From NCBI RefSeq assembly GCF_001613545.1, contig NZ_BDCO01000002.1, positions 2,852,001 through 2,916,000 of the forward strand: DNA of 64,000 nt, in the 5' to 3' direction. A program made the translations under genes and the position numbers. This document shows positions 41,236-43,885 of this stretch, in pieces; positions within the stretch are counted from its first letter, which is position 1; every line of letters starts with the position of its first letter. This DNA comes from Terrimicrobium sacchariphilum. Lineage in GTDB: Bacteria > Verrucomicrobiota > Verrucomicrobiia > Chthoniobacterales > Terrimicrobiaceae. A model generated the notes under the pieces. The model had not been told where the DNA came from. It saw only the letters and a list, made by a program, of their open reading frames with translations, and ran no database searches.

Positions 41236-42387
41236 ATGGATTCGCGCGTTTGGTTGATCGGCACCCCTGTCGTCCTGTTGGTGCTGGCTTCCGGAGTACC
41301 TTCGTTGCGACGCGCCTATCTGGATGGATGGCGGTGTGTACTGCGTCATGGAGGGCTTTGGAAGATTCCGGCGGGGTTTGCCCTCGCCTACGGCCTATTC
41401 GCTGGTGCGCTGGAAATGTGGCTGACCAATCTCGCCGGCCGCGACATGCAACCCGTGTTTCAATTCAATACCGCGCCTCCCGCCCTATCCCCCTTGATCG
41501 CGTCAAGCCTCGTCCCAGCCGCAGAGCAGCTTGCCGCCACCCTGACCTCTCTCGTCTCGGTATTTCCTCTTTCGTGTATCGCCGCCCTCCTCCTGTTGGT
41601 GAACTACCGCGGGTTGGCGCGGGAACTTTTCAAGATGGCTCGGGCGCGGTATGGCGCCGGCGTATGGATCATCCTGCCGATCGCCCTGATCTGCACACTC
41701 TCCGCCCTGGTCAAACCGGTTTCATTCCTCGCCCTGCCCTTCGTCTCCAAGGTGCTCGACACGCCATCCATTCTCGGGCTGGGCGCAACGATCAACCTCC
41801 TGTCTTTTATCTTCGAGTTCCTCCTCGGCACAACGATCCAGCTCTGCCTGCTCTTCACAGCCTACGGCTGGGTGCGCGGTCTGAGCCTCAATGACGAGCG
41901 GCTTTTGCCTTTCGCTGTGCGCCGGTTGGGATACGTACTGAAGTGGTCGCTTGTGATCGTCGCCGCCACACTTGTCATCTTCCACCTTCCATTCCTCTGG
42001 GATGCGCTACACTCAGGCAGCATGTCATGGAATCCCGAGAGCTGGGCGCGACTATTCCTCTCCGCCATGACATTGCTTTTCGGAACCGTGCAGATTCACC
42101 TCGCCTTTCACAACACGACACTCAAGCAAGCCATAATCGCCAATTTCCGCTTCCTGCGAACCAACGGGTTCCATTATCTGGGCTTCCTGCTCACCGCTTT
42201 TGGATTCCTCCTCATCGCACAGTTCGTCCCGATGTTTGGCCTGGAGATTTGCGAAGGTTCCCTCGTGGGCGTGGCGTTGGCCATATTTGCCCAGACACTG
42301 GCTGCGGGCGTAGGCGGCTGGCTGCTCGCTTCGTGGGTTTGTTTCTTCAAGCAGTATTCCCGCGGAGGAAAGGAGATTACGTATTGA
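41236..42387 (+). CDS. Polytopic membrane protein coupled to a degenerate ABC protein
   Basis: I do not recognise a family for this 383-residue protein. It has about nine hydrophobic segments, the last two close to the C-terminus, with short cytosolic loops rich in Arg (YRGLARELFKMARARYG, RGLSLNDERLLPFAVRRLGY). It lacks the FtsX or ABC-2 hallmarks I would look for. It ends in TTGA, which is also the start of the ABC-type gene, and a strong AAAGGAG precedes that start. The arrangement suggests the two products form one complex. Confidence 0.75.
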   Translation: MDSRVWLIGTPVVLLVLASGVPSLRRAYLDGWRCVLRHGGLWKIPAGFALAYGLFAGALEMWLTNLAGRDMQPVFQFNTAPPALSPLIASSLVPAAEQLAATLTSLVSVFPLSCIAALLLLVNYRGLARELFKMARARYGAGVWIILPIALICTLSALVKPVSFLALPFVSKVLDTPSILGLGATINLLSFIFEFLLGTTIQLCLLFTAYGWVRGLSLNDERLLPFAVRRLGYVLKWSLVIVAATLVIFHLPFLWDALHSGSMSWNPESWARLFLSAMTLLFGTVQIHLAFHNTTLKQAIIANFRFLRTNGFHYLGFLLTAFGFLLIAQFVPMFGLEICEGSLVGVALAIFAQTLAAGVGGWLLASWVCFFKQYSRGGKEITY

Positions 42388-43061
42388 AACCGCTCGCCCT
42401 CGCCTGCCGGCAGATCACGTGTCATCGCCCCGCCTGGAATGGAGCGGGGCCGGCCTCGGTCCATGATGTGACCGCATCCTTCACGTTCGGCGAGTTTTGC
42501 GCCATCACCGGCCCCGACGGAAGCGGCAAGGGCTTGCTCATGAATGTCCTCGGCCTTATGGAGCAACCGGACCACGGGGCCGTCGCCGTGGGCGAGTACG
42601 ATGCCTCTACTCTGGCACTCGAGGAAATGCGTCAACTGCGCAATGAAGCTTTCGGGTTCCTTTTTAATCATCCCTGCCTGCTTCCCTCCTTCTCCGTCGC
42701 GGAAAACGTCGCCATGCCGCTGTTCCGCATCTGCGGAGGCGAGGCAAAGGGCGTACGGGCCCGTACTCTGGAGGTGCTAGAGTTTTGCGGTATTGAGCAT
42801 CTGGAAAGTGCCCTGGCGGGCCGTCTGGACTTTTCCCAGCGGCGGACAGTGGCGCTCGCGCGGGCGCTGGCGCATGACCCGGATATCCTCCTCATTCTCT
42901 CTCCCTCTGCCTCGGAAGACCTGCTCCAGCTGGCCCGCCGCGCCGCTGTAGAACTCAACCGATGCGTGGTCTGGGCGGGAGGAGAAGAGCAGTTGCAACA
43001 TCATGCCCACCGGCTTATCCAGATGGACCGCGGCCGAATCCTCAGCGACTACCGCCAGTGA
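42384..43061 (+). CDS. Degenerate ABC ATP-binding protein (LolD/MacB-like, pseudo-ATPase)
   Basis: The 225-residue protein aligns along its whole length with LolD/MacB-type ABC ATPases, but the catalytic residues are replaced. Walker A is GPDGSGKG (residues 43-50), with Gly for Ser/Thr. The Q-loop has Asn95 (FLFNHPCLLPSFSVAENV). The signature is reduced to DFSQRR. Walker B reads ILLILSPS, with Leu172 and Ser173 for Asp-Glu. The H-loop His is replaced by Gly (WAGGEE). The frame is intact, so it is a maintained pseudo-ATPase, not a pseudogene. Start is TTG with AAAGGAG 8 bases upstream. It overlaps both neighbours by 4 bases. Confidence 0.85.
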   Translation: MKPLALACRQITCHRPAWNGAGPASVHDVTASFTFGEFCAITGPDGSGKGLLMNVLGLMEQPDHGAVAVGEYDASTLALEEMRQLRNEAFGFLFNHPCLLPSFSVAENVAMPLFRICGGEAKGVRARTLEVLEFCGIEHLESALAGRLDFSQRRTVALARALAHDPDILLILSPSASEDLLQLARRAAVELNRCVVWAGGEEQLQHHAHRLIQMDRGRILSDYRQ

Positions 43062-43885
43062 ACTCTCCCACCCTCACCCTGGCCTCCGATAGCGGTGCAA
43101 AAAGCTCCAACCTGGCCTTTGCCCTAGGCAGTCTCCCCGCTCCGCGACGCCGCGATGCCATGGTCTTCTACGCTTTTTGCCGCGAGATCGACGACATCGC
43201 CGACGAAGCTGGCAGGACTCCCGAGGAAAAGCACCGGCTTCTCGACGCATGGAAGAATGGCTTGCGGGGGAATCAGCCAATACCAGCCAGCCTGCGGGAC
43301 ATCATCATGCGCCACCGCATAGATCGGGAGTTGCTCGTGCAGATCGTCGAGGGGGTCGAGATGGATATCGAGCCAGGGGACTTTGAGACCTTCAACGATC
43401 TCCGTACTTACTGCTGGCATGTCGCCAGCGCCGTGGGGCTCGTCAGCATCAAACTCTTTGGCTGTACCGATGCCAAGAGCACCCGGTATGCGGAGGACCT
43501 CGGCTACGCCCTGCAAATCACCAATATCATCCGCGACGTCGGCGAAGATGCTGCCTTGGGCAGGATCTATCTCCCGGTTGAGGACACCGAGAGATTTGGG
43601 GTCGATCGTGCCCAACTCCGCAACGGTATGGCGACGGGGCGTTTCCGGGAACTCCTCGAGTTTGAAGCTGGCCGGGCGCGCGAATACTACGCCGGAGCGC
43701 GCCAATCCCTCACCGCGCAGGACGCAAAGGCGCTGCTGCCGGCAGAAACAATGCGGGAGATTTACTCCCGACTGCTGGACCGGATGGAAGGAGACGGCTT
43801 TCGTGTGCTGGAAACCCGCTACCGCCTCTCCAAGGTGGAAAAGCTTGCGATCCTGCTTAAGAAGCGAATCGGTTTTCCTTGGTAA
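43058..43885 (+). CDS. Squalene/phytoene synthase family protein
   Basis: A 275-residue trans-isoprenyl diphosphate synthase of the HpnC/HpnD/CrtB type, which joins two prenyl diphosphates head to head. The two Asp-rich motifs are REIDDIADE and RDVGED; NIIRDVGEDAALGRIYLP is the family signature. No hopanoid cyclase or carotenoid desaturase is adjacent. The GTG start overlaps the stop of the degenerate ABC gene by 4 bases, so the enzyme belongs to the same operon as the membrane protein. The end overlaps the stress-protein gene by 29 bases, tail to tail. Confidence 0.9.
   Translation: MNSPTLTLASDSGAKSSNLAFALGSLPAPRRRDAMVFYAFCREIDDIADEAGRTPEEKHRLLDAWKNGLRGNQPIPASLRDIIMRHRIDRELLVQIVEGVEMDIEPGDFETFNDLRTYCWHVASAVGLVSIKLFGCTDAKSTRYAEDLGYALQITNIIRDVGEDAALGRIYLPVEDTERFGVDRAQLRNGMATGRFRELLEFEAGRAREYYAGARQSLTAQDAKALLPAETMREIYSRLLDRMEGDGFRVLETRYRLSKVEKLAILLKKRIGFPW

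Follow-up and report, generated by a model that had tools for sequence, protein, structure and literature searches.

Within a 64,000-nucleotide stretch of the Terrimicrobium sacchariphilum genome (the window), we identified an ABC-fold protein, here called a pseudo-NBD, that lacks the residues of a working ATPase and is encoded directly upstream of an HpnD-like squalene/phytoene synthase. Its relatives in the same order (Chthoniobacterales; in the NCBI taxonomy, Terrimicrobium has its own order, Terrimicrobiales) form a single clade, share the degraded motifs, evolve under purifying selection and are most conserved in one segment of the helical subdomain. Because a dead version of the domain is kept beside a squalene-making enzyme, it probably has a structural or regulatory job there. 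We put the probability that it is a maintained pseudo-ATPase that acts in the squalene module as a docking or regulatory subunit at about one half. The genes and motifs discussed are:

41236..42387, + strand: multipass membrane protein of 383 aa without a Pfam family; CTL/PNS1- and CysZ-like by predicted fold, a patchy partner
42384..43061, + strand: pseudo-NBD (ABC-fold protein, 225 aa) with TTG start and TGA stop (43059-43061), supported by Pfam, AF2 and structural matches
42510..42533, + strand: degraded Walker A GPDGSGKG, residues 43-50; Lys49 kept, Mg-binding Ser/Thr replaced by Gly50
42666..42668, + strand: Q-loop Gln replaced by Asn95
42672..42731, + strand: the family's most conserved segment, PCLLPSFSVAENVAMPLFRI, in the helical subdomain (conservation over 42 sequences)
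42825..42839, + strand: lost signature, LSGGQ replaced by LDFSQ, residues 148-152
42897..42902, + strand: Walker B Asp/Glu replaced by Leu172/Ser173
42978..42980, + strand: H-loop His replaced by Gly199, placed by alignment
43058..43885, + strand: HpnD-like squalene/phytoene synthase with DDIADE and DVGED Asp-rich motifs; proposed GTG start, overlapping the pseudo-NBD stop by 4 nt (GTGA)

An ABC domain with an intact frame and degraded motifs

The frame of the pseudo-NBD is open over the full 225 aa, and its TTG start overlaps the upstream stop codon (TTGA, 4 nt). The protein matches Pfam ABC_tran at 1e-15 (59 bits; cut-off 25), and the same domain was found in 30/30 members of a set of pseudo-ABCs (set A1). 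Its AF2 model has a mean pLDDT of 93.7 and a pTM of 0.91. The top structural match of the model is MJ0796 (Z 29.5 over 217 residues), followed by Aquifex aq_297 (Z 29.4), the ABC domain of E. coli MacB (29.1) and a LolCDE chain (27.2). By domain match and predicted fold, the window protein is thus an ABC NBD.

None of the motifs of a working ATPase is complete. The Walker B Asp-Glu pair and the H-loop His are gone (Leu172/Ser173 and Gly199), LSGGQ and the Q-loop Gln have become LDFSQ and Asn95, and Walker A (GxxGxGK(S/T)) retains the Lys and lacks the Ser/Thr. A sequence-only reading of this DNA had described an ABC protein with an intact frame and every catalytic motif degraded. The intact frame, the ABC assignment and the loss of Walker B, Q-loop, signature and H-loop are confirmed, but Walker A is only half lost, as Lys49 remains. 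That reading also gave the signature as DFSQRR, a string that begins one residue late relative to the aligned motif; that the signature is lost is correct.

In fold, length and motif order, the pseudo-NBD resembles the LolD/FtsE/MacB-type NBDs, and its best NCBIfam scores are to LolD (TIGR02211, 93 bits) and FtsE (TIGR02673, 87.7 bits). However, the LolD score is far under the equivalog cut-off of 307.75, so the protein does not qualify as LolD. It further differs from this group in having lost Walker B, Q-loop, signature and H-loop, and in adjoining HpnD.

Loss of the catalytic residues across the order

An order-wide search (E 1e-46) identified a pseudo-NBD in 65 of 213 genomes, and all 65 are degraded. 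The Walker B Asp and the H-loop His are absent throughout (0/65 each), the Walker B Glu is kept in 8/65, and the Q-loop Gln and the first signature Gly are each kept in 1/65. In Walker A, the Lys is kept in 45/65 (lost in 20) and the Ser/Thr in 4/65 (lost in 61). Degraded motifs are therefore general among the homologs, and relatives with an intact Walker B and H-loop, which the sequence-only reading had named as a sign of recent decay, do not occur among the 65 matches.

The 65 sequences comprise two sets. The first includes 42 sequences (30 loci from the 58 relatives searched, seven lower-ranked matches beside HpnD, L180 and four further loci). It retains the Walker A Lys in 30, Ser/Thr in 2, Q-loop Gln in 1, Walker B Asp in 0, Glu in 5, H-loop His in 0 (the His of L073 sits one residue off the H-loop column and was scored as lost), signature Ser in 6, and the first and second signature Gly in 1 each. 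In 16/42 the change at the Walker B Asp is mild, with Glu in its place. The second set came from the order-wide search, and none of its members contributed to the search profile; 27 loci were fetched, and L277, L281, L282 and L284 were left out as repeats of L102, L106, L144 and L114. The remaining 23 genomes retain the Walker A Lys in 15, Ser/Thr in 2, Q-loop Gln in 0, Walker B Asp in 0, Glu in 3, H-loop His in 0, signature Ser in 6, first Gly in 0 and second Gly in 3. The least degraded members overall are L074, L266 and L269 (f6, genus g10), in which the Lys, the signature Ser, the second Gly and the Walker B Glu are kept. One genome has a second, partial and broken pseudo-ABC copy (L086, on G009:C136) in addition to an open copy (L008), which could represent a mixture of strains in the MAG.

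A search at the level of the class returned 30 loci, 23 of which were read (L180-L202). Six of these, from the same order, are pseudo-ABCs adjacent to HpnD; the other 17 are intact ABCs, and HpnD is not matched within 1.5 kb on either side of them (less at contig ends). We used the 17 as controls (16 from other orders and one, L195, from the same order): every motif residue scored is intact in 17/17, and none is degraded (0/17). In an IQ-TREE phylogeny, a 100/100 branch separates the 42 degraded sequences from the 17 intact ones; several of the sequences are long-branched. We propose a clade of free-standing pseudo-NBDs, whose members group together (tree based on 42 of the 65), have lost the motifs, lie upstream of HpnD and are under purifying selection.

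Which canonical residues persist varies by lineage; for example, both Lys and Thr occur in L010, L011 and L274 (f9). From the distribution of these residues, we infer that the loss of catalysis probably came first, close to or at the root of the order, and that erosion of the nucleotide site may have followed separately in each lineage. This pattern bears on the possibility of a conditional nucleotide binder or sensor in the lineages that keep the Walker A Lys (45/65, including that of the window). Lys49 is present in the window protein and its Walker A is confidently modeled by AF2, but across the family the Ser/Thr is lost in 61/65, the Walker B Asp in 65/65 and the Lys in 20/65, and Walker A conservation is 0.51 compared with 1.00 in the controls. 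Such erosion of nucleotide-binding residues argues against a family-wide nucleotide sensor, a role that the sequence-only reading had suggested and for which we find no support at this scale. We consider conditional sensing very unlikely even in the lineages that keep the Lys.

Searches for intact orthologs and remnants

No intact ortholog was found among the 23 class loci read or upstream of 20 HpnD genes from outside the order (0/20); in all 20 of these loci, neither an ABC nor a relative of the membrane protein lies upstream. As a control for search bias, we began from HpnD in 27 order genomes that lack a pseudo-ABC match and found HpnD in 22. Fourteen of these 22 loci show no ABC. The other eight, all from genus g119, carry an upstream ABC from a different family whose LSGGQ, Asp-Glu and His are all intact; this holds for 8/8 g119 loci with HpnD, and the pseudo-ABC is missing from them.

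Two of the g119 ABCs were examined in full (L309:3217-5852, and L308, on the reverse strand). They are 576-579 aa long and combine an NBD with an intact Walker A and an ABC2_membrane domain, and the HpnD start lies in an ATGA overlap with the stop of this ABCG-like half-transporter. Other g119 loci with intact ABC motifs are L291, L292, L294-L296, L299, L301 and L304. The ABCG-like gene is not an intact ortholog of the pseudo-NBD but represents a second instance, from a different family, of an ABC gene coupled to HpnD.

In 12 HpnD loci without an ABC, we searched for pseudogene remnants and found none above noise (best E 4.2). A limited literature search found no described free-standing pseudo-NBD, none tied to squalene synthase, and no link between an ABC protein and HpnD.

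Purifying selection on the pseudo-NBD gene

Within the genus, dN/dS of the pseudo-NBD is 0.044 (vs L002) and 0.077 (vs L003). The values in the same two comparisons are 0.059 and 0.086 for HpnD, 0.064 and 0.094 for HolB, and 0.111 and 0.142 for the membrane protein, and Der, PgsA, USP and ProB are more constrained than the pseudo-NBD (0.015-0.047). Across 15 close pairs of pseudo-NBDs, dN/dS ranges from 0.044 to 0.417 (values for pseudo-NBD pairs are NG86). The highest value (L014-L015, 0.42) was obtained at a dS of only 0.064 and is from genomes without the membrane protein; raised values were also found for L010-L011 (0.35) and L010-L013 (0.24). Nine pairs are from genomes that show no membrane protein, and eight of them give 0.074-0.186, the ninth being L014-L015.

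With degradation in 65/65 and within-genus values far from the dN/dS near 1 expected of decay, the sequence comparisons support the earlier suggestion of a maintained pseudo-ATPase. Recent decay to a pseudogene is ruled out, as the members read are degraded throughout and dN/dS is low. A related scenario is that of a slowly dying remnant, retained only through translational coupling to HpnD. The overlapping genes in the window, the patchy presence of the gene in the order and the broken partial copy in G009 are in line with it. Yet dN/dS is like that of HpnD and HolB, the frames are open in the members read, and one specific segment is near invariant across the order, so that we regard the remnant scenario as extremely unlikely.

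Conservation of the presumed docking segment

The most conserved stretch of the pseudo-NBD family is LLPSFSVAENVAMPLF. The five best 19-residue windows all fall within residues 94-117, and the top one, PCLLPSFSVAENVAMPLFR, scores 0.83 against a mean of 0.535 for the protein (42 sequences). In canonical NBDs the matching segment follows the Q-loop and forms the groove in which the coupling helices of the membrane domains dock. Conservation at the motifs is 0.51 for Walker A, 0.44 for the signature, 0.46 for Walker B and 0.45 for the H-loop, and the N-terminal, C-terminal and outer helical parts vary at least as much (0.41-0.46). Values of 0.67-0.73 are found around the Q-loop and in the stretches that follow Walker A and the signature. 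At the four motifs, the intact controls score 0.71-1.00, with Walker A at 1.00.

Intact ABCs, too, conserve the docking segment (0.76, vs 0.82 in the pseudo-NBDs). Nineteen positions are more constrained in the pseudo-NBDs than in intact ABCs, and six of them lie in residues 97-116 (hypergeometric P 0.004, which is only indicative because these residues were picked after the data had been seen). Ala110 is invariant in the 42 pseudo-NBDs and variable in the controls, and Pro101 and Phe114 likewise vary less than in the controls. Given that the docking segment is kept and the motifs have eroded, the transducing surface has been retained and the engine lost.

A retained docking surface might also belong to a regulator of a canonical ABC transporter, which would dock a LolCE/FtsX/MacB-type permease or pair with an intact NBD as a decoy or asymmetric subunit, its adjacency to HpnD being historical. 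Both the fold and the best-scoring profiles point to the LolD/FtsE/MacB type, and the docking segment is the part kept. A partner may be encoded elsewhere in the genome: the window genome (G000) has 37 ABC matches, and another genome, G005, has two other ABC matches 2-6 kb upstream. However, the three-gene operon in the window includes neither a permease nor a second NBD, and adjacency to HpnD in 64/65 genomes would be left unexplained. The asymmetric ABC exporters (Pdr5, TAP, CFTR; TM287/288) resemble the pseudo-NBD in having non-consensus motifs kept for a structural role, but they have one degenerate composite site, with one working site left, and Pdr5 is damaged at one of two such sites (PMC7756269). 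The pseudo-NBD, in contrast, is a free-standing single NBD without a canonical partner or ABC permease in its operon, and, having lost both the Walker B/H-loop half and the signature half, it would damage both sites of whatever dimer it joined. Taken with the gene order, these differences make a transporter regulator unlikely. Degenerate ABC sites have been described within asymmetric transporters that still have a working site; the pseudo-NBD is instead a free-standing NBD without both site halves, conserved over a large part of an order next to a lipid-synthesis enzyme.

Linkage to an HpnD-like synthase

The preferred reading, a subunit of the squalene module, draws on the gene order. An HpnD-like gene lies downstream of the pseudo-NBD on the same strand in 64/65 genomes (42/42 in the first set, where the HpnD match begins within 250 nt of the pseudo-NBD stop, and 22/23 in the second). 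The one exception is G242 (L264), in which the membrane protein and the pseudo-ABC occur without HpnD beside them.

The neighbor in the window matches SQS_PSY at 223.4 bits (cut-off 26). Its best NCBIfam match is HpnD (TIGR03465), at 252.3 bits, which is below the equivalog cut-off of 278.6. Despite this score, it is most likely the HpnD of the squalene pathway. SQS_PSY was matched in 58/58 relatives and squalene-hopene cyclase in 32/58, including the window genome (three of the 32 matches are weak). An HpnE-like match is weak (122 bits, cut-off 283), and the same model matched 14/14 control genomes. The locus therefore resembles the HpnCDE pathway in its SQS_PSY protein and in the cyclase match of its genome, and differs from it in the sub-threshold HpnD score and in the ABC gene upstream, which is lacking in the HpnD loci from outside the order (20/20).

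The pseudo-ABC is dispensable, as a match at E 1e-46 was obtained in only 65/213 genomes of the order, and four relatives of the same family (G008, G015, G018 and G019) keep HpnD without it. When 64 linked HpnDs were compared with 49 others, no positions marked the linkage at the cut-offs used. This speaks against HpnD having a strong, specific interface, and we rejected a dedicated one.

A patchy membrane protein upstream

The model of the membrane protein encoded upstream is most similar to PNS1/CTL1 (choline-transporter-like; Z 14.3-15.4) and to CysZ (Z 9.4-9.7), values that helical proteins can reach without being related. No sequence relative in the PDB is significant (best E 0.4). The 50 structural matches listed include no ABC permease at a Z of at least 8, and an entry for a SUR-containing KATP channel matches at Z 3.9, a result that does not argue against an ABC permease fold. 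A GPDPase_memb match is weak (E 0.052) and was obtained for 1/19 members of the family, in which K160, E194 and R230 are invariant.

The membrane protein was found in 10/188 sampled class genomes, all of the same order, and sits upstream of HpnD or the pseudo-ABC. It lies within ~1.6 kb upstream of the pseudo-ABC in 17/42 loci and in the fetched stretch of 12/23 more, and in the window the two genes share the TTGA overlap. These associations would suit a scaffold for the CTL/CysZ-like protein, and the sequence-only reading had proposed a scaffold for the membrane protein to which the gene is coupled. Against this, no copy of the membrane protein was found in the assemblies, some of them incomplete, of 23/37 relatives that carry the pseudo-ABC, and 7/21 membrane-protein genomes have no pseudo-ABC. 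In six of these seven, we read the membrane protein directly upstream of HpnD; the seventh (G044), with the membrane protein split over two contigs, was judged by coordinates only. We infer from the mismatches in both directions that the pseudo-ABC and the membrane protein are independent and that both track HpnD. In addition, eight of nine pseudo-NBD pairs without the membrane protein remain at dN/dS <=0.19. As a general role, scaffolding of the membrane protein is thus unsupported, and we rate it as quite unlikely; the near-constant neighbor is HpnD (64/65).

A proposed non-hydrolyzing subunit of the squalene module

Dead catalytic folds are known to be kept as scaffolds or regulators of pathway enzymes, and the pseudo-NBD resembles such pseudoenzymes. 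In the history we favor, a LolD/MacB-like NBD would have become fixed early in the Chthoniobacterales, immediately upstream of the HpnD-like gene, and would have lost catalysis there. The loss of the Walker B Asp and H-loop His, now seen in all members read, would have been followed by erosion of the remaining nucleotide site in individual lineages, and purifying selection would have kept the folded protein as a non-hydrolyzing subunit of the squalene module. Its coupling-helix groove may hold a helix of a partner, which could be HpnD, a resident ABC permease or, in genomes that have it, the CTL/CysZ-like membrane protein. Docking of this kind might place the synthase at the membrane or regulate it there.

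A more specific version is offered tentatively. An ABC ATPase domain may have become a permanent non-hydrolyzing subunit of a membrane-bound squalene-synthesis complex, with HpnD or a lipid-handling membrane protein held in the coupling-helix groove, and may thus work outside any transporter. If so, the ABC fold can be co-opted purely for docking. The gene would also provide a handle on how HpnD is organized at the membrane, toward squalene and hopanoids, in Verrucomicrobiota. Annotation based on the ABC_tran match alone names such proteins “ABC transporter ATP-binding protein,” which is misleading for pseudo-NBDs.
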